Origin: Rikenella microfusus DSM 15922
GTDB taxonomy: Bacteria > Bacteroidota > Bacteroidia > Bacteroidales > Rikenellaceae
DNA: 64,000 nt
Direction of reading: 5' to 3'
NCBI RefSeq assembly: GCF_000427365.1
Contig: NZ_KE386488.1
Coordinates: 1,178,001-1,242,000, forward strand
Part shown: positions 20,013-47,675 of the stretch, in pieces
Position numbering within the stretch: position 1 is the stretch's first letter
Layout: the number at the start of each line of letters is the position of its first letter
The notes under the pieces: generated by a model
Told to the model about the DNA's origin: nothing
The model's database searches: none
The model's input: only the letters and a program-made list of their open reading frames with translations
Translations under genes and position numbers: made by a program

Positions 20013-21863
20013 ATGAAGAAATTAGTGGATAACTCCGATCTCGGAATACCTTATACCACCGTGTTGAATAAGGCTGTCGTCAAGTTGGCGCAGTCCATGC
20101 TGGGTATCAACAAGATCAATCGTCTCTATTCGGAAGCCTCCGGCAAAGAGGGAATCGATTTCGCCCGTGCGGTGCTGGATCAGTTGGGGATCGTGGCGGA
20201 GACGGATGCCGGACGGCTCGGTTTTATTCCGGAAAAGGGGCCTTTCGTGCTGGTTTCGAATCATCCGCACGGAGCTTTGGACGGTTTGCTCCTGATGGTC
20301 TTGGTCGCCCGTATTCGGCCGGATGTCAAGTTTCTGGGTAATTTCCTGCTGACGAAGATCGATACGCTGAACGAGTTTTTCCTGCCTGTCGATCCGTTCG
20401 ATGCGAAAAACGGTCGTAATATTTCGGGGGTACGGCGTGCGGTGGAACATCTGAAAGCGGGGAGGCCGTTAGTCGTTTTTCCGGCCGGAGAGGTCTCCAC
20501 TTATCGGAAAGGTTTTTCGAAAATCGAGGACAAACCGTGGTCCCGGTCGGTTTCCAAACTGATTCTCCGGGCCGGAGTACCGGTAATACCGGCTTATATA
20601 GAAGGATGTAATAGCTTGATATTCCATTTGTTGGGTAAGATACACCCGATGTTGCGGACGGTGCGCCTGCCGTTGGAGCTGATCAATAAGAAGGGGAGAT
20701 CGGTAGCGGTGGCTTTCGGTTCGGCGGTGCCGGCCAAATTGTTGAAAGAGATCGGTTCGGCGGAGTCGGTTTCGGATTTTCTGCGGGCGAATGTGTATTG
20801 CCTGCGTTCCGTATTGACCGATACGGCGGCTGCGACGGAAGAGTTGGAGGCGGTACGCCGGGCTACGGTTTCGAGGTTGGGGTTCCGTAAAAAACGGAAG
20901 GCAGGGGGCGGGAAGTCCGTGGCGGATGAGTTGGCGGAGCCGGTCGATCCGCTTCTGCTGGGGCGCGAGTTGGATGCGCTTGCCGACGAACGGATGCTGA
21001 CGCGGGTGGGAAATATGTGTCTTTTCTGTGCTCCGACATCGGTCATACCTCTGACAATGAAAGAAATAGCGAGGCTGAGGGAGGTGACTTTCCGGGCTGT
21101 GGGCGAGGGGACTCAACTGGAGACGGACAGCGACGAATATGATGACCTGTATGAGCATCTTTTTGTCTGGGATGCGGAAAAACAGGCGATCGCCGGGGCG
21201 TATCGGATCGGTTTCGGAGATGTGCTGCTGGACAACCGCGGGTTCGAGGGGTTCTATACTTATACGCTTTTCGAGTTCTCGCGCCGTTTGAACGATGTGC
21301 TGCGGCAGTCGATCGAACTGGGGCGTTCGTTCGTGGTGCCGGGGTATCAGCGGCGTTCGCAGACTTTGTTGTTATTATGGCGGGGTATTTTGCATGTTTT
21401 GCTGCGGAATCCGTCTTACCGTTACCTGATGGGGCCGGTGAGCATGTCGGGCGGCTATGCGATGGCGGCGAAGTGGCTGCTGATCGATTATATCAAGGCG
21501 AATCACTGGAATGCGGAGCTGGCTCGTTATGTGGTGCCGCGTAACGGTGTCGGGGCGCTGGGACGTCCGGCGGTGGATGAGGAGATGATCCGGAGGATCG
21601 TCTCGACGGATGAAATCGATAAGTTGATCCGGGATGTGGAACCTTCGGGGCAGGGGATGCCTGTGCTGATGAAAAAGTATCTGCAACTGGGGGGACGGGT
21701 CATGGGATTCAATATCGATCCGCTGTTCAACGATGCGCTGGATGCCATGCTGATTCTCGACCTGTGCGATGTGCCGAAGGATAAAATCGATATGGTGGCC
21801 AGGGAGTTCGCGGGCGAAAATGTCTATGAACGTTTCCGCTCCGTCGGTAATACGAAATTATAA
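20013..21863 (+). CDS. fused lysophospholipid acyltransferase / N-acyltransferase (OlsF-type aminolipid synthase)
   Basis: A 616-residue two-domain protein. The N-terminal half (about 1-280) is a PlsC-like O-acyltransferase with NHPHGALDG (about 83-91) in place of the usual HX4D box, FPAGEVST and PVIPAYIEG. The C-terminal half (about 310-600) is an OlsB/GlsB-type GNAT N-acyltransferase, with LREVTFRAVGEGTQLE, AYRIGFGD and FVVPGYQRRS. This fusion matches OlsF from Serratia and Flavobacterium, which makes ornithine lipids. In Bacteroides, two separate proteins (GlsB and GlsA) make glycine lipids, so the amino acid used here cannot be deduced. The repeat element begins directly after its stop codon. 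Confidence 0.85.
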   Translation: MKKLVDNSDLGIPYTTVLNKAVVKLAQSMLGINKINRLYSEASGKEGIDFARAVLDQLGIVAETDAGRLGFIPEKGPFVLVSNHPHGALDGLLLMVLVARIRPDVKFLGNFLLTKIDTLNEFFLPVDPFDAKNGRNISGVRRAVEHLKAGRPLVVFPAGEVSTYRKGFSKIEDKPWSRSVSKLILRAGVPVIPAYIEGCNSLIFHLLGKIHPMLRTVRLPLELINKKGRSVAVAFGSAVPAKLLKEIGSAESVSDFLRANVYCLRSVLTDTAAATEELEAVRRATVSRLGFRKKRKAGGGKSVADELAEPVDPLLLGRELDALADERMLTRVGNMCLFCAPTSVIPLTMKEIARLREVTFRAVGEGTQLETDSDEYDDLYEHLFVWDAEKQAIAGAYRIGFGDVLLDNRGFEGFYTYTLFEFSRRLNDVLRQSIELGRSFVVPGYQRRSQTLLLLWRGILHVLLRNPSYRYLMGPVSMSGGYAMAAKWLLIDYIKANHWNAELARYVVPRNGVGALGRPAVDEEMIRRIVSTDEIDKLIRDVEPSGQGMPVLMKKYLQLGGRVMGFNIDPLFNDALDAMLILDLCDVPKDKIDMVAREFAGENVYERFRSVGNTKL

Positions 21864-22262
21864 ACCGTTCTTTTATCCGTACTGTTCAGGTTTGAGGGTA
21901 CTGTTCCTTTTGTTCACAAAAGGAACCGAAAAAACTTTTTGAGATGCTGGCGCATCTCCTGAACCTGCCGGGTACCCCCTTTTCTTTGACAGTCTTGTTT
22001 TGCAATGGCAGGGGGCTTTTCAGTCCAATACAATTTGGTTAGCTCCCTGCCATTGCAAAACAAAGAGCAGGCTCAATGCAAGAGGACTGCGGAGACTGAG
22101 GCGCACACGGCTGCTCGAAAGTTTGGCTTCGCCTTCTTCCTGACGCCTCGGCCATTCGAGTGAACTCGACGGCTCTCGGCTGCTGCGTCGGCTCTTTGGT
22201 TCTTTCTTTTCAAAGAAAGAACGGTTGCCTCAAAACTTAACGTACAGAATAAACGAACGATT
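21864..22262 (+). repeat. inverted-end intercistronic element, copy A (family 1)
   Basis: A non-coding element of about 400 bp. The left end (21865-21907, begins ACCGTTCTTTTATCC) and right end (about 22218-22262, ends GAATAAACGAACG) are imperfect inverted repeats of about 40 bases. Inside are a 19-of-20-bp stem (21997-22016 with 22042-22061) around a loop containing GGTTAG, and a small palindrome GTTCTTTC...GAAAGAAC near the right end. It starts directly after the acyltransferase stop and ends 26 bases before the DUF4435 ATG, with a parS site between. Related copies are at 23936, 28347 and 47276. Confidence 0.85.
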
Positions 22263-22270
22263 GATATTAC

Positions 22271-22286
22271 AGTTTCACGTGGAACA
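22271..22286. other. parS-like site (ParB binding), copy 4
   Basis: GTTTCACGTGGAAC (22272-22285), a hybrid of the two half-sites seen at copies 1 and 3; it fits GTTnCACGTGnAAC. It lies 3 bases before the DUF4435 start codon. Confidence 0.75.
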
Positions 22287-22288
22287 TT

Positions 22289-23269
22289 ATGGGGAAAAGG
22301 TTGGTTCAGAATATAACGTCCGAATATTTCGAAGCTATTTCCGCTTTGCATAAGCGGAACCGGGTTATGGTGTACGTCGAAGGGTACGACGATATACCCT
22401 TTTGGCGGTCCATATTCGATGAATTCGAAACTCCCGACCGGCGGTTCGAGATTTCGACCCCCGCACGGAACGACCTCGCCAAAGGGAAAAAAGTGGTTTT
22501 GCAATTCGCGGATCAGGCCGGGAAAAGCCTGATACTATGTGTCGATTCCGATTTCGATTACCTGTTCGGCGACCTCTCGTCGCAGTCCCGGACCGTCAAT
22601 CACACCCCCTACCTGCTCCAGACCTATACTTATGCCATAGAAAACTACCTCTGTTATCCGCCCTCCCTGCATTCCGTTTGCGTGCGGGCGACCAAGAAAG
22701 ACGCGCATATCTTCGATTTCGAAGAATTCATGGCCGAATATTCCCGGACCATATACCCCCTGTTCGTGTGGTACGCCTATGCCGCCCGTGTCGATCGTCC
22801 CACGATCTTTACACTGGCAGACTTTCGCAATACGGTGAAAATCAATTATATCAATGTGGAAGATAACGGCGAGGACACCCTGGAATGGCTCGGTAAGCAG
22901 GTGGCTAAGCGACTGCGGTTCCTTCGGGCCAAACACCAGAAACGGTTGCCCGAAGTCGATAAATTCGACGCTTATCTTCGGGAGAAAGGCGTGGTGCCCG
23001 AAGAGACCCATCTGTATATGCAGGGGCATGCTTTGTTGGACAATGTAGTTTCCGTATTGGTAGGTACCGTCTGCAATGCGCTCCGGAAGATGGCCGTAGG
23101 CCAGATATTGGGCAGTTCGCGGCAGGGATTGCCGCTCAATAACGAACTGAGTTCCTATAACAACTCTCTGTCGGACGTGGACGAGTTGCTGAAAAGCAAT
23201 ACGGGGTTCCGGTCGTGTCCGTTGTTCACCAAACTGCGGGCGGATATCGTGCGGATGCTGGAAAATTGA
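22289..23269 (+). CDS. DUF4435 (TOPRIM-like) protein, no ATPase partner
   Basis: A 326-residue protein with the DUF4435 signature: VMVYVEGYDDIPFWRSIF (Glu31) followed by LILCVDSDFDYL (Asp86, Asp88), the acidic set of a TOPRIM nuclease fold. A middle section IENYLCYPPSLHSV and a helical C-terminal half (about 200-326) complete it. DUF4435 is the nuclease-like subunit (AriB) of the PARIS anti-phage system and pairs with AAA ATPases elsewhere, but here the neighbours are lipid and envelope genes and no ATPase is adjacent. It may be a housekeeping form of the family; the nucleic-acid substrate is unknown. A parS-like site and repeat element A immediately precede it. Confidence 0.8.
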   Translation: MGKRLVQNITSEYFEAISALHKRNRVMVYVEGYDDIPFWRSIFDEFETPDRRFEISTPARNDLAKGKKVVLQFADQAGKSLILCVDSDFDYLFGDLSSQSRTVNHTPYLLQTYTYAIENYLCYPPSLHSVCVRATKKDAHIFDFEEFMAEYSRTIYPLFVWYAYAARVDRPTIFTLADFRNTVKINYINVEDNGEDTLEWLGKQVAKRLRFLRAKHQKRLPEVDKFDAYLREKGVVPEETHLYMQGHALLDNVVSVLVGTVCNALRKMAVGQILGSSRQGLPLNNELSSYNNSLSDVDELLKSNTGFRSCPLFTKLRADIVRMLEN

Positions 23270-23349
23270 CGATTCTTCGGAAAAATGGCTACCTTGTGAA
23301 CGATTGTTGCCTTATGCCGGCAACGGTGAAATGTAAAACTGGAAAACAA

Positions 23350-23925
23350 ATGACAGGACATTACGGATTTCGTATATCGGGCCGGATGGCGGCCGTGTTT
23401 TCGGGACTGCTTTTATGTGTGGGGACGCTCGTTTCGTGTTCGAGAGAACTGACGCCGGAAGACGCGCTGGGACAGATCGTGGAGCAGGCGGAGTTCCAGA
23501 TGCCGTACTATGCGCCGATGCGTGTCGGGGAAATGGTTTTGACGGGGGATAACCACAAGAATAGCAGGCAGTATATCCGCAAACATTACGGTACGTTGAT
23601 CGATGCGGGGCTGGTCGAGGTGAAGAACACGGACAGCAATACGTGGAGGACGGTAATCGACGTGCAGCTGACGGCCAAAGGGCAAGCGATGTCGGACTCG
23701 CGTCGTTCGACGGATAAGGAGGCGTATGTGCAGGTTTGCCGGATGGTGCCGGTGAAAATCGAGGAATTCCGCACGGTGTCGGAGGGAAATGTAATCGAAT
23801 GCTCATACGTTTTCGAGGAGCGGGAAATCACTCCGTTCGGTGCGTACCAAGGGTTCCAGCAAGGACGGTCCTATAAAGATAAACGCACTTTCGTCCGCTC
23901 GCGCGGATCCTGGCATGTCCAGTGA
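23350..23925 (+). CDS. lipoprotein of unknown function
   Basis: A 191-residue predicted lipoprotein: hydrophobic signal then lipobox VGTLVSC (Cys at about 31). The mature part contains IRKHYGTLIDAGLVEVKN and, further on, VQLTAKGQAM. Together these read like the recognition-helix-plus-wing layout of a winged helix (xxYGxLxxAGLV...xLTxKG), odd for a surface or periplasmic protein. The C-terminus ends in a basic stretch GRSYKDKRTFVRSRGSWHVQ. The start is ATG at 23350, chosen because it gives a proper signal peptide. Element B begins 10 bases after the stop. Confidence 0.65.
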   Translation: MTGHYGFRISGRMAAVFSGLLLCVGTLVSCSRELTPEDALGQIVEQAEFQMPYYAPMRVGEMVLTGDNHKNSRQYIRKHYGTLIDAGLVEVKNTDSNTWRTVIDVQLTAKGQAMSDSRRSTDKEAYVQVCRMVPVKIEEFRTVSEGNVIECSYVFEEREITPFGAYQGFQQGRSYKDKRTFVRSRGSWHVQ

Positions 23926-23935
23926 ATATTTGTTT

Positions 23936-24450
23936 AACCGTTCGTTTATTCCGTACTGTTCAGGTTCGAGGGTACTGTTGTCCGAAACGACGGCCTGCAC
24001 CTAAACTTGAGGTTCGGCCTGTCGCCCTCCCCCCGTGGCGCGAAGCGCCAGGGCGACAAGGCCGGCGGTTCTGCGAACCGCAAAACCACGGGCTATCGTT
24101 CCGATCGAAAATCCTGAAGAAAAGGGCATCTGCCAAACTCAGGAGATACGATCTCAAAAAGTTTGGTTTCACCTTCTTCCTTGCGCCTCGGCCATTCGAA
24201 CGAGTTCGACGGCACTCGGCTGCTGCGTCGGTTTTCCGGTTCTCTTTGTTCACAACCGACGCTGCCAGCGCATCCGGAGACCGCTTGCGGGCTATGGTAA
24301 GCGGCGAGGAGGAACCGAGTAGCGTTCCGAGACCAAAGACCGTTCACGGTCTTTGGCAAGGCAGCACGAGGAAGCCGCAGGCAAAACGAGCGAAGCGACG
24401 TTAAAGAGAACAGTACCCTCGAACCCAACAGTACAGAATAAACGAACACT
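23936..24450 (+). repeat. inverted-end intercistronic element, copy B (family 1)
   Basis: About 515 bp, the longest copy. The left end (from 23936, AACCGTTCGTTTATTCCG) and right end (to 24450, AGTACAGAATAAACGAAC) are inverted repeats of about 40 bases. A central module of roughly 280 bases (about 23980-24250) is shared, same orientation relative to transcription, with copy D at 47.3 kb. It includes a hairpin GGCGCGAAGCGCC and the palindrome GCGGTTCTGCGAACCGC. The right end stops 9 bases before the mscL ATG. Open frames through it are not conserved as proteins between copies. Confidence 0.85.
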
Positions 24451-24459
24451 TAAAAAGAT

Positions 24460-24876
24460 ATGCATATGAAATGGTTATCCGAGTTTAAGAAATTCGCTAT
24501 GCGCGGTAACGTAGTGGATATGGCCGTCGGTATTATCATCGGTGCCGCATTCGGGAAGATCGTCAGTTCGCTCGTCAGCGACGTTATCATGCCCCCCATC
24601 GGCGTATTGCTCGGCGGCGTGGACTTTTCCAATCTGGCTGTTACCATCAAGCAGGCCAGCGGGGACACCCCTGCCGTAGTGATCGGATACGGGAAATTCA
24701 TTCAGACCGTTATCGACTTTATCATCATCGCCTTTTCCATCTTCGCGCTCGTGAAATTCATGAACGCCCTCAAGAGCAAAGCCGAGACCGCCGCAGAAGC
24801 TCCGAAACCCGCCGAACCGACCAAAGAAGAGCAGTTGCTGACCGAAATACGCGACCTGTTGAAAGAGAAAAAATGA
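24460..24876 (+). CDS. mscL: large-conductance mechanosensitive channel
   Basis: Homopentameric inner-membrane emergency valve opened by membrane tension on osmotic downshock. At 138 residues it has [20 protein letters not shown] for the amphipathic start and the pore-lining TM1, [19 protein letters not shown]2 at about 78-101 ([20 protein letters not shown]) and a C-terminal bundle helix [15 protein letters not shown]. The ATG at 24460 or 24466 may be used. The preceding repeat element supplies the sequence just upstream of the start codon. Confidence 0.95.
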
Positions 24877-24988
24877 TACCGGGCTTGTCCGTTTCGTTGG
24901 CTTTGGCAATCTTTCGGTATCGAAAGAAGGAAAAGTCTGAACGGAACCCGCTACAAAAGTTAGGAAAACAGAACATAAAGTGTAAGAG

Positions 24989-26134
24989 ATGGGACTGATC
25001 GCCACCATGAGCAAGAAAGATAAAAAAGATATACCTTCGCTTGCCGAACTGATACAAATGGGAAATCATAAGACAGCGAGGAACATCCTGATTACCGGCG
25101 GCGCCGGATTTATCGGGTCGCACGTCGTGCGGCTTTTTTGCGAGAAATACCCCGATTACCGGATTTACAACCTCGACAAGCTGACCTATGCCGGGAATCT
25201 GGAAAACCTGAAAGACGTGTCCGGGAAATGTCCCAACTACCGTTTTATCAAAGGCGACATCTGCGATCTGGAACACATGCGCCGTATCTTTGCGGAGCAT
25301 AAGATCGACGGCGTGATCCACCTGGCCGCCGAAAGCCATGTAGACCGCTCCATCAAAGATCCTTTCGCCTTCGCGCAGACCAACGTGCTGGGTACCCTCT
25401 CGCTGTTGCAGGCCGCCAAAGAAGCCTGGGACGGCGCCATGGGCGGCAAGCTCTTCTACCATGTCAGCACCGACGAAGTGTACGGGTCGCTGCGCGACCC
25501 CGGCACTTTCTTCGTCGAGACCACCCCTTACGATCCCCAGTCGCCCTATTCGGCCTCCAAAGCCTCCAGCGACCACTTCGTGCGGGCGTTCGGCAACACC
25601 TACGGCCTGCCCGTCGTAATCTCGAACTGCTCCAACAACTACGGGCCGAACCAGTTTCCCGAGAAACTCATTCCGCTGTTCATCAACAACATCCGACACA
25701 ATAAACCGCTGCCCGTGTACGGTACCGGCGAGAACGTGCGCGACTGGCTTTACGTCGTCGATCACGCGCGGGCCATCGACACCATTTTCCACAGCGGCCG
25801 GGTAGGGGAGACCTACAACATCGGCGGATTCAACGAATGGCGGAACATCGACCTGATTCGGGTGATGATCGCCACGGCCGACCGTCTGCTGGGACGGCCC
25901 GCAGGGACGAGCGAAAAACTCATTACCTACGTGGCCGACCGCGCCGGGCACGACAAACGCTACGCCATCGACTCCGCCAAACTCCACGAGGAACTCGGCT
26001 GGGAGCCTTCGCTGCAATTCGAAGAGGGGATCGAAAAGACCATCCGTTGGTACCTCGACAACCAGGAGTGGCTCGACAATATCACCAGCGGCGCTTACGA
26101 ACGGTATTACGAAGAGATGTACGGCGACAAATAG
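24989..26134 (+). CDS. rfbB: dTDP-glucose 4,6-dehydratase
   Basis: An NAD-dependent short-chain dehydratase converting dTDP-glucose to the 4-keto-6-deoxy sugar, step two of dTDP-L-rhamnose synthesis. Visible are the Rossmann motif TGGAGFIGSHVV (about 37-48), catalytic STDEVYG and YSASKAS (YxxxK), and the substrate loop SNNYGPNQFPEKLIP. At 381 residues it has an N-terminal extension of about 30 charged residues beyond the family start, so an internal start (ATG at 25007 or 25058) is possible. rfbA and rfbC are not in the window; rfbD follows after one gene. Confidence 0.93.
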   Translation: MGLIATMSKKDKKDIPSLAELIQMGNHKTARNILITGGAGFIGSHVVRLFCEKYPDYRIYNLDKLTYAGNLENLKDVSGKCPNYRFIKGDICDLEHMRRIFAEHKIDGVIHLAAESHVDRSIKDPFAFAQTNVLGTLSLLQAAKEAWDGAMGGKLFYHVSTDEVYGSLRDPGTFFVETTPYDPQSPYSASKASSDHFVRAFGNTYGLPVVISNCSNNYGPNQFPEKLIPLFINNIRHNKPLPVYGTGENVRDWLYVVDHARAIDTIFHSGRVGETYNIGGFNEWRNIDLIRVMIATADRLLGRPAGTSEKLITYVADRAGHDKRYAIDSAKLHEELGWEPSLQFEEGIEKTIRWYLDNQEWLDNITSGAYERYYEEMYGDK

Positions 26135-26146
26135 GAGTGCGTAGCG

Positions 26147-27463
26147 ATGTACCGGAATGCGGAAGAACCCGTCAGGTTGGTGATGGTCGGTTTCGGTAAC
26201 CGGGCCAGAACTTATGCGGATTATCTGCGCCGGGTTTCCCCGAACTCGGCGGGCGGCCCGGCAGCCCGTGTCGTTGCCGTCGTGGAACCCAATGTTTTCC
26301 GGCTCCGTGCCGCGTTGGAGACGTTTTCTTTGCCCTCCGGCGCCGGTTTCGATACCTGGGAACGGTTTCTGGAGGCGACTTCCCCCACGGGGCCGGCCCG
26401 GTTGTCTGAGATACAGGCCGCGATCGTTACCACCCCGGATCATCTGCACTACGGTATCGCGATGTCCGCCCTGCGGGAGCGGGGATACCATCTCCTGCTC
26501 GAAAAACCCATCGCCCAAAGTTATCGCCAATGCCTCGACATCGCTGAGGCCGCCCGGCAGCGGGGGCTGATCGTCGGCATTTGCCATCCGCTGCGTTATC
26601 ACCCTTTCTTTGTCCGTTTCCGCGAATTGGCACGGGACGAAAGCCGGGTCGGGCGTATCGTCGCCATTTCCTATGCCGAGAATATCGGTTTGGGCCGGAT
26701 GACCCACGCTTTCGTGCGGGGGTTATGGCGGAACCGTACAGCGAGCAATACGCTGCTCGTCTCCAAATGCTGCCACGACGTCGATTATCTGGTCTGGCTG
26801 ACCGGCTCGTCGGCCGTGAGCGTGCGGACCGCCGGAGGATTGTCCCTTTTCCGGCCCGAACGGGCGCCGGGGGCCAGCGCCGGCGCGCAGCGGTGCCTCG
26901 ACTGTCCGATGGAGCGCGAGTGCCCCTATTCGGCGGTGGAACTCTATCTGCGGCAGCGGAAGTGGTTGAGGCATTTCGACCTGCCGCCCGGATTCGGCGA
27001 CGGCGACATACGGCGGGTGTTGCGGGACAGCATATACGGCAGGTGCGTTTACCGGGTCGGAGATAACGACGTCTGGGACCACCAGTCGGTGCAAATCGCG
27101 TTGGCGAACGGAGCGGACGTCGCTTTGGAAGTGAACGGGGTGACGGCTGTCGAGGGACGCCGCATCCATGTGATGGGGTCGAAAGGGGAACTGTGGGGCG
27201 ACGAGCATACCATACGGTTCCGGTATTATCCCACGGCGGGGATGCAGACGGGCGACCGGGAGCAGGAGTGGCATTTCCCGGCCCTGGCCGACGCGCCGGG
27301 ACATGCGGGGGCGGATTATGCCCTGGTCGAAGATTTTTTGAACGGCGTGCGGGCCGTTTTGTCAGGCAGGGGCGGATGGCCGTTGTGCGACATCCGTCAT
27401 TCGATGGAGGCGTACCGCATCGCATTTTTGGAAACGGATAATCAGCGGATAACGAATGGATAA
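26147..27463 (+). CDS. Gfo/Idh/MocA family oxidoreductase
   Basis: A 438-residue NAD(P)-dependent sugar oxidoreductase. N-terminal Rossmann fold VRLVMVGFGNRARTYADYL (about 9-27), the family signature LLLEKPIAQS (about 115-124), and C-terminal alpha/beta domain with KCCHDVDYLVWLTG as the likely active-site helix. A cysteine cluster RCLDCPMERECPY (about 248-260) is present. It lies between rfbB and rfbD, 12 bases after the former and overlapping the latter by 8, so it is expressed with them and may act on a dTDP- or free sugar intermediate. The substrate is unknown. Confidence 0.85.
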   Translation: MYRNAEEPVRLVMVGFGNRARTYADYLRRVSPNSAGGPAARVVAVVEPNVFRLRAALETFSLPSGAGFDTWERFLEATSPTGPARLSEIQAAIVTTPDHLHYGIAMSALRERGYHLLLEKPIAQSYRQCLDIAEAARQRGLIVGICHPLRYHPFFVRFRELARDESRVGRIVAISYAENIGLGRMTHAFVRGLWRNRTASNTLLVSKCCHDVDYLVWLTGSSAVSVRTAGGLSLFRPERAPGASAGAQRCLDCPMERECPYSAVELYLRQRKWLRHFDLPPGFGDGDIRRVLRDSIYGRCVYRVGDNDVWDHQSVQIALANGADVALEVNGVTAVEGRRIHVMGSKGELWGDEHTIRFRYYPTAGMQTGDREQEWHFPALADAPGHAGADYALVEDFLNGVRAVLSGRGGWPLCDIRHSMEAYRIAFLETDNQRITNG

Positions 27464-28346
27464 GATTTTGGTGACCGGCGCGAACGGTCAGTTGGGAAAC
27501 GAACTGCGCGACATCGACCGCAGCGGGAAGTATGCCGGGCGGTACGGGTTCGTCTTTACGGACGTAGCGGAACTGGATATTACGGATCGGGCGGCGGCGG
27601 TGGCTTTTGCGGAGAGCGAGCGGCCGGCGTGGATCGTCAATGCGGCGGCTTATACGGCGGTCGATAAAGCGGAGGTGGACGCGCGGCGGGCGGAGCTGCT
27701 GAATGCCGGTGCGGTGGGCAATCTGGTCGCGGCCGCGGAGGCTGTGGGGGCGGGTTTCGTACAGGTTTCGACGGACTATGTGTTCGACGGGCGTATACCG
27801 GCCGACCGTCATGCGCTGACGGAGGACGATCCGGTGGGACCCTGTTCGGTATATGGGACGACGAAGTGGCAGGGGGAGGAGCTGGCGTTGGCCTATCCGC
27901 GGAGTTTCGTGGTGCGCACGGCGTGGCTTTACAGTACGTATGGCAATAATTTCGTGAAGACGATGCTGCGCCTGGGGGCGGAGCGTCCGGAGCTGGGCGT
28001 GGTGGCGGACCAGTGGGGAACGCCGACCTATGCGGCGGACTTGGCGGCGGCGATCCTGCGCATGATCGCTGTGACGGATGGGGAGGCGTCGGAACGGGCG
28101 GACGGGCTGTTCGGCCTCTATCATTATACGGACGGGGGAGTGGCTACGTGGTGCGATTTCGCACGCGAGATCATGCGTCTGGGGGGACGCAAATGCGAAG
28201 TGCGGGGAATTACTACGGCGGAGTTCGGCGCTGCGGCGCCTCGCCCGGCGTGGTCGGTACTCTCCAAGGATAAGATACGGAACGCGTTCGGCGTTGAGGT
28301 CCCGGACTGGCACGATAGCCTCGCCCGCTGTATCCAAGCCCTTTAA
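27456..28346 (+). CDS. rfbD: dTDP-4-dehydrorhamnose reductase
   Basis: The NAD(P)H-dependent last step of dTDP-L-rhamnose synthesis. 296 residues: TGANGQLGNELRDI (about 6-19), VNAAAYTAVDKAE, VSTDYVFDG and YGTTKWQGEE (catalytic YxxxK), and DQWGTPTYAADLA in the C-terminal half, all standard RmlD motifs. Overlaps the oxidoreductase gene by 8 bases. Repeat element C begins at the base after its stop codon. Confidence 0.94.
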   Translation: MDKILVTGANGQLGNELRDIDRSGKYAGRYGFVFTDVAELDITDRAAAVAFAESERPAWIVNAAAYTAVDKAEVDARRAELLNAGAVGNLVAAAEAVGAGFVQVSTDYVFDGRIPADRHALTEDDPVGPCSVYGTTKWQGEELALAYPRSFVVRTAWLYSTYGNNFVKTMLRLGAERPELGVVADQWGTPTYAADLAAAILRMIAVTDGEASERADGLFGLYHYTDGGVATWCDFAREIMRLGGRKCEVRGITTAEFGAAAPRPAWSVLSKDKIRNAFGVEVPDWHDSLARCIQAL

Positions 28347-28721
28347 ACCGTTCGTTTATTTGTACTGTTCAGGTTTGAGGGTACTGTTCTCTTTAACTTC
28401 GCTACGCTCGTTTTCCTCCTCGCCGCTTACCATAGCCCGTAAACGGTCTCTGGATTCGCTGGCAGCGTCGGTTGTGAACAAAGAGAACCAGAAAAACTTC
28501 CGAACGCATCCCGTTGGGATGCTAATGCCGTATTTGCCCCGATTTTGCTATGCGGGAGGGGGCCGGTTAGTTCCTGCATAAGCCCCTCCCGCATAGCAAA
28601 TGCAAAAGGTAGTTACAGCGTGGCTGCCCGAAGGGCGGCCTCTGGAAAGTCTTTTTGGTTCTTTTTCTTCAGAAAAAGAACGGTTGCCCCTAACCCAACG
28701 TACGGATAAACGAACGAATTG
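28347..28721 (+). repeat. inverted-end intercistronic element, copy C (family 1)
   Basis: About 375 bp, beginning directly after the rfbD stop with ACCGTTCGTTTATTTG and ending in GTACGGATAAACGAACG, 10 bases before the fcl ATG. The interior differs from B and D but has the same layout as A. A long stem TTTGCTATGCGGGAGGGG (from 28544) pairs with 28582-28600 around a loop holding GGTTAG, and a palindrome TTCTTTTTC...AAAAAGAA precedes the right end. A TAGTTACAGCGTGGCTGCCC motif at about 28610 resembles a module at 1-50 and 41110. Confidence 0.85.
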
Positions 28722-28730
28722 AAAAGAGAT

Positions 28731-47266: not shown

Positions 47267-47275
47267 CCCATTTTT

Positions 47276-47670
47276 ACCCGTTCGTTTATTCTGTACGTTA
47301 AGTTTTGAGGTAACCGTTCTTTCTTTGAAAAGAAAGAACCGAAGAGCCGACGCAGCAGCCGAGTGCAATCGAACTCGTTCGAATGGCCGAGGCGCAAGGA
47401 GGAAAGCGAAGCCAAACTTTTTGAGATCGTATCTCCTGAGTTTGGCAGGTGCCCTTTTCTTCAGGATTTTCGGCTGGAACGACAGTTCGCGTTGTTTTGC
47501 GGTTCGCAGAACCGCCGGCCTTGTCGCCCTGGCGCTCTGCGCCACGGGGGGAGGGCGACAGGCCGAACCTCAAGTTTAGGTGCAGGCCGTCGTTTCGGAC
47601 GAACAGTATTCCGGAACCCGAAGCGTGCACAGTTGCCTCAAAACTTAACGTACAGAATAAACGAACGGTT
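47276..47670 (-). repeat. inverted-end intercistronic element, copy D (family 1)
   Basis: About 395 bp filling the gap between the two SGNH genes, from 5 bases after the stop of the upstream gene to 9 bases before the start of the downstream one (both minus strand). The ends ACCCGTTCGTTTATTCTG (plus strand, 47276 on) and TACAGAATAAACGAACGGT (to about 47670) are inverted. Read on the minus strand, the interior matches copy B over about 280 bases in the same orientation relative to transcription, and the palindrome GTTCTTTC...GAAAGAAC sits at 47318-47338. Confidence 0.87.
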
Positions 47671-47675
47671 ATATA

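Follow-up and report, generated by a model that had tools for sequence, protein, structure and literature searches.

We analysed a 64,000-nucleotide stretch of the genome of the gut bacterium Rikenella microfusus DSM 15922 (NZ_KE386488.1, positions 1,178,001 to 1,242,000, forward strand; hereafter the window), which carries copies of a palindromic intergenic element, two of them called copies A and C. The hairpin at the centre of these copies keeps its pairing across the whole element family, and the covariation between its two arms is real, genome-wide and very strong. We favour, at a probability of about 50%, a mixed account in which template switching supplies the paired changes and a requirement for the fold filters them. 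At least 64 elements of 250–619 bp with inverted ends were delimited between genes of this genome; the number is a lower bound, and three further end matches, near genome positions 1456708, 1763801 and 229433, were left out of the analysis. Copies A and C are members of a genus-wide palindromic element that is apparently non-coding and is mobile or formerly mobile. The family is a new variant of mosaic palindromic intergenic repeat and is not a repetitive extragenic palindrome (REP); a literature search found no published description of it. The central hairpins of the two copies, in window positions, are as follows.

21861-22264, forward strand: copy A, with inverted ends and copies elsewhere in the genome
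21995-22017, forward strand: 5′ arm of the central hairpin of copy A
22018-22040, forward strand: loop of this hairpin, in inverted orientation compared with genome copy 1419525
22041-22063, forward strand: 3′ arm of the central hairpin of copy A
28342-28722, forward strand: copy C
28544-28561, forward strand: 5′ arm of the central hairpin of copy C
28562-28582, forward strand: loop of this hairpin
28583-28600, forward strand: 3′ arm of the central hairpin of copy C

An earlier note on this DNA had placed a hairpin in copy A and another in copy C, and both are found where it put them. In copy A, the arms of 23 nt are complementary at 22 of 23 positions (96%), while in copy C all 18 positions pair; the nineteenth pair that the note assigned to copy C, between 28562 and 28582, sets G against G and is unpaired. 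Compared with dinucleotide shuffles, the folds of copies A and C reach z scores of −7.9 and −6.0 on the forward strand and −7.6 and −5.8 on the reverse strand, and none of 200 shuffles folded as well in any of the four comparisons. The two stems differ in sequence and both pair, as had been claimed, and a cleaner case is provided inside one stem cluster, where copy C has GCGGGAG/CTCCCGC and the copy at genome position 204481 has GCAGGAG/CTCCTGC. The hexamer GGTTAG, which the note described as kept in both loops, is indeed present in both, at 22037-22042 in copy A (at the 3′ end of the loop, extending into the 3′ arm) and at 28565-28570 in copy C (on the 5′ side of the loop). These are different loop positions, and a conserved loop motif is ruled out, as GGTTAG occurs in 3 of the 42 family loops and, as its reverse complement, in one more.

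Central hairpins of this kind are present in 42 of the 64 elements; they have 18–28 pairs and loops of 13–28 bases, and fall into 12 stem clusters. For the covariation test that the earlier note had proposed, copies of the own genome were used, comprising 40 distinct hairpins with 19 pairs each (760 cells), and the signal proved strong. Standard pairs occupy 96.2% of the cells, compared with 72.1% in shuffles. Two-sided changes account for 197 cells, compared with 55 (standard deviation 8) in shuffles and 11–34 in slid controls; they affect 15 of the 19 pairs, and one-sided changes are few. The covariation score is 0.697, compared with 0.217 in shuffles, and RNAalifold recovers the same stem, with two-sided changes at 18 of 21 pairs. 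Furthermore, the ungapped arms of one copy agree with each other at 0.981, whereas arms taken from different copies agree at 0.662. Single pairs change on both sides within a cluster, as in copy C above and in AAGAACA/TGTTCTT versus AAGGACA/TGTCCTT, for which one A–C intermediate is present (43333).

Shared ancestry could in principle generate such a pattern if a few hairpins with different stems had spread, the covariation being a by-product of relatedness that involves neither selection nor exchange between arms. Many copies are closely related, the shuffle control leaves their relatedness in place, and two shuffle measures are weak, the count of pairs with two-sided changes being reached by 19 of 500 shuffles and that of further pair types by 482 of 500. 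The slid controls, however, keep the relatedness and nevertheless show the drop given above, and one representative from each of the 12 clusters still gives an arm agreement of 0.968 within copies versus 0.598 between copies. The single-pair changes inside clusters and the outer arms of the same family, which lack such an effect, likewise argue against shared ancestry, and we regard it as a very improbable explanation. Across all pairs of copies, the identities of the two arms are 0.755 and 0.758, those of four flank segments are 0.67–0.83, and that of the loop is 0.561, against a shuffled baseline of 0.56. The arm values fall within the range of the flanks, and the idea that the stems evolve more slowly or faster than their flanks was dropped.

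The loops carry a second kind of change. In five contrasts, the reverse complement of one loop nearly matches the other, while the stems are alike (0.86–1.00) and the 40-base flanks run in the same direction (0.72–0.95). In particular, copy A and the copy at genome position 1419525 have identical stems and flanks that are 0.95 identical, with loops that agree at 0.32 when read directly and at 0.77 when one is reversed. Of 76 four-base loops in the small hairpins near the element ends, 12 have the minority orientation (7 of 36 on the left, two of these with right-type arms, and 5 of 40 on the right), a soft count, because some of those loops belong to the motifs from which the orientation of the elements was assigned.

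The earlier note had read the paired changes as selection on a folded RNA or cruciform. The part of this reading that concerns the maintenance of pairing stands, and a constraint on the fold is likely; as sole cause, such selection is contradicted by the inverted loops, the rarity of wobble pairs, an element orientation close to random and outer arms without covariation. Specifically, read on the coding strand, the 35 central stems between co-directional genes contain 9 G–U, 6 A–C and 2 other mismatches among 817 pairs, and a wider count over all long stems (38 stems and 870 pairs, two of the stems lying outside the 42-copy set) gives 12, 9 and 5. In element orientation, all copies together have 9 G–U, 16 A–C and 13 other mismatches. 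Selection on an RNA helix should clearly spare G–U; one-sided wobble pairs are rare and not clearly favoured on the coding strand, where the excess of G–U is slight and the numbers are small. The element ends, about 300 bases apart, agree at 0.756 within a copy and at 0.777 between copies (permutation p 0.97; 53 of 64 elements), indicating that the maintenance of pairing is local. Together, the loop inversions, the small G–U excess and the outer arms without covariation mean that covariation need not imply RNA selection. We also considered and rejected a single very large RNA fold under selection, with the element ends as its closing stem: whole elements do fold as a long structure, yet their own ends match each other no better than they match the ends of other copies.

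Selection on the transcript alone, the RNA form of the reading in the earlier note, would see in the stem a near-perfect RNA hairpin of 20–25 bp that serves in processing, termination or stability, with compensatory mutations fixed stepwise. The genomic setting suits this explanation, in that 54 of the 63 elements with both neighbours called lie between co-directional, probably co-transcribed genes (8 lie between divergent genes and 1 between convergent genes), at a median distance of 3 bases from the stop codon and 18 from the start codon; these gene calls are approximate, as they come from a codon-usage model trained on eight genes of the window. The strong covariation, the very stable folds on both strands and the stem length kept at 18–28 pairs are also in line with it. 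The loop inversions, the scarcity of wobble pairs with only a slight G–U excess, and the lack of covariation in the outer arms speak against it, as does the orientation of the elements relative to transcription, which is nearly random (same direction in 30, opposite in 24). Moreover, Rfam 15 gives no match at gathering score in the 64-kb window, and at E values up to 0.5 the central hairpin retrieves only two plant-type microRNA precursors, at E values of 0.16 and 0.42 and with scores that fall well short of the gathering ones. We therefore consider transcript selection by itself an unlikely explanation.

The mixed account assigns the two observations, paired change and retained hairpin, to two processes. 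Template switching at replication, in which the arms of a local hairpin exchange sequence at the DNA level, would be the proximate cause of the paired changes in this species; it would copy one arm onto the other and could flip the loop on the way. A hairpin of about 20–25 pairs would in addition be needed by the mover of the element, or by something acting on the transcript, and for that reason would not be lost. The same need for the fold may keep the unpaired bases that are found in the stems of sister genomes.

Several observations weigh against this combination of template switching and a fold requirement. A gapped search over the sister genomes and two metagenome records yielded 43 distinct central hairpins, 40 of which have at least one unpaired base; the three without one all come from a single genome (G004). 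Where a stem has exactly one unpaired base, it lies 11–13 bases from the foot in 19 of 21 cases, and on the 5′ arm in 15 of the 17 stems with known orientation. Likewise, a sequence-conserved centre found in 16 elements of the own species (the B-type centre) retains a one-base asymmetry in 15 of the 15 readable copies. Homogenisation of the arms should erase such asymmetry, implying either that the copies are young or that the irregularity is selected. In addition, the single-step paired change is inferred, no conversion event having been observed in closely related strains in a comparison with one genome per species; stems and flanks diverge alike, so that no raised mutation rate of the stem is seen; and the comparison of G–U with A–C mismatches has only 15 informative cells.

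The upper stem of the sister-genome hairpins varies between types with its pairing kept, and in two contrasts (locus L166 versus L201, and L167 versus L172) the hairpin has seemingly turned as a unit together with its own asymmetry. Some structural constraint on the central hairpin is likely, given that the unpaired bases of the sister-genome stems stay at nearly the same position. By analogy with REPs and integron attC sites, the selected form might be folded single-stranded DNA, serving as a strand-specific site for a putative recombinase or transposase that moves the element. The near-fixed position of the unpaired base fits such a site, as does the presence, absence and reversal of elements at the same sites in relatives; among REPs, one group has a bulge in the stem and, in one account of REP recognition, conserved bulges matter (PMC8266576). 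In the own species, by contrast, all 42 central stems were found without a gap in their arms, and the searches described below provide no Y1 transposase in eight genus genomes, no GTAG at the 42 stems, no target duplication and no candidate enzyme. We hold this explanation to be tentative and unlikely.

A broader proposal, which we also rate as doubtful, is that of a shape-coded element, neither REP nor attC and either mobile or regulatory, whose central hairpin would be read by its shape, as single-stranded DNA or as RNA, by a putative partner present in the genus. Its sequence would drift through single-step template switching between the arms, while the partner would keep the right length and, in sister genomes, the unpaired base on one arm.

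A functional RNA is often regarded as proven once changes on both sides of a stem preserve its pairing. The present family combines strong covariation with loop inversions and little wobble across dozens of copies in a single genome, and it offers a natural test case for covariation created by template switching alone. It also cautions that, for dispersed palindromes in bacteria, a test for covariation can reach significance where an RNA function is absent.

In a typical element, the inverted ends start near TTTAACCGTTCGTTTATT, and each is followed directly on its inner side by a perfect hairpin of small size; another small hairpin and the centre complete the element. The inverted ends were detected by match in 53 of the 64 elements; besides the 42 elements with the covarying hairpin and the 16 with the B-type centre, six have neither. 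The remaining features of the window copies are given below.

21861-21902, forward strand: left inverted end of copy A, overlapping the stop codon of the preceding gene
21903-21926, forward strand: left small perfect hairpin of copy A, GTTCCTTTTG-TTCA-CAAAAGGAAC
21941-21958, forward strand: second small hairpin of copy A, GAGATGC...GCATCTC, seen in the sequence and paired in the fold of relatives
22199-22222, forward strand: right small perfect hairpin of copy A, GTTCTTTCTT-TTCA-AAGAAAGAAC
22223-22264, reverse strand: right inverted end of copy A
20013-21863 and 22289-23269: neighbours of copy A, an acyltransferase gene and a DUF4435 gene (Pfam)
23932-24455, reverse strand: copy B, with a B-type centre, preceding an mscL gene (24460-24876, Pfam)
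24016-24063, reverse strand: central hairpin of copy B, sequence-conserved, with the one-base asymmetry
27456-28346: RmlD-like gene, which flanks copy C together with an epimerase gene
28658-28681, forward strand: right small perfect hairpin of copy C
47272-47671, reverse strand: fourth window copy (genome 1225272-1225671), with a B-type centre

Some copies are nested mosaics, with longer palindromic modules inside the small end hairpins (for example 23932-24455 in the window and own copies 550262 and 518352). At 1763801-1763895 of the own genome (locus L207), two end-type matches run in opposite directions and overlap within about 95 bases, perhaps forming a minimal element that consists of ends only. 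In own copies 1533865, 830355 and 1275537, the inverted match extends into flanking host DNA, one of the three resembling two similar gene starts. Palindromic growth into host flanks is weak and is not claimed (permutation p 0.042; a score of at least 18 is reached by 3 of 56 copies, compared with 0.95 on average and no more than 6 in shuffles).

Searches of the own genome returned 112 matching pieces with copy A, 116 with copy C and 96 with copy B. Every match listed for the family lies on one contig (C2), and none of those listed lies on contig C1 (about 186 kb). All seven other genomes of the genus that were searched have family matches. Beyond the genus, among 53 genomes, short weak matches were obtained in two with copy C and in three others with copy A. 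Short modules of the element match other genera of the bacterial family (loci L115, L116, L128, L129 and L130; genomes G026, G016, G035, G012 and G021), and the mosaic may include parts that predate the genus.

Loci of relatives, chosen by a match to copy A, copy C or the protein beside copy A and hence not an unbiased rate, were compared with the own sites by eye. At many sites an element is present in the corresponding gene gap of relatives: the site of copy A is occupied in L134, L135 and L138, and that of copy B in L134 and L135; other own sites are occupied in L147, L153, L160, L163, L172, L177, L178, L179, L181, L186, L188, L200, L201 and L202. Sites without a visible element are those in L151 (1668168), L203 (1064395), L186 (1261860) and L142 (sites of A and B); L190 and L191 retain only remnants, and L151 has an element where the own genome has none. 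Ten locus pairs, representing eight own sites, have a central hairpin in both members and an orientation that is known for each; in three of them (L153, L160 and L179) the whole element is reversed. The occupied and empty sites and the reversed elements indicate that gain or loss and reversal happen.

No target-site duplication of any length or offset exceeds the shuffles in the 56 of 64 elements tested. The Y1 transposase domain (PF01797) is absent from all eight genus genomes, four of which are at least 90% complete, while the same search is positive in 5 of 14 control genomes; the Y2 transposase domain (PF04986) also gives 0 of 8, from which nothing follows, as no control genome is positive either. 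No autonomous copy with a transposase gene was recognised among own-genome matches to one end of copy A. A scan for the end motif in a collection of genome contigs, which may leave out this and near genomes, gave no match.

Integron attC sites combine a variable sequence with a kept fold, an unpaired base and core boxes. The present family resembles them in keeping its fold despite a variable sequence and in the unpaired base of the sister genomes, and differs in that the stem foot shows no core boxes and no cassette array was noticed, no integrase search having been made. With REPs, bacterial interspersed mosaic elements (BIMEs) and REPINs, which are associated with the REP-associated tyrosine transposase (RAYT, or TnpA-REP), the family shares dispersed intergenic palindromes, a mosaic build and variable stems. 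REPs are, however, units of 20–40 bp with a RAYT, whereas the present elements measure 250–619 bp, have inverted ends and are found in eight genomes without a Y1 transposase. Furthermore, within 15 bases of the 42 central stems there is no GTAG on the 5′ side and no complement of it on the 3′ side, and a CGTC tag occurs in none on the 5′ side and in one on the 3′ side. The missing GTAG at the central stems and the missing Y1 transposase in the genus genomes rule out membership of the REP/RAYT system.

Bacterial miniature inverted-repeat transposable elements (MITEs), such as BrickBuilt of Porphyromonas gingivalis as portrayed in PMC5771137, are likewise short, intergenic and multicopy, with inverted ends and presence or absence between genomes. 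The present elements have the terminal inverted repeats, the short length and the lack of an internal transposase gene of a MITE; they differ in having no target-site duplication and a strongly covarying central hairpin. Work on yeast genes names homogenised arms and an inverted spacer among the products of template switching at inverted repeats (PMC8604942), and for RNA genes template switching is put forward as an origin of compensatory changes in the stems of RNAs (PMC8794818). In contrast to those inverted repeats, the present ones form a dispersed bacterial family with dozens of copies and no dated events; what they share with template-switched inverted repeats are their matched arms and inverted loops.

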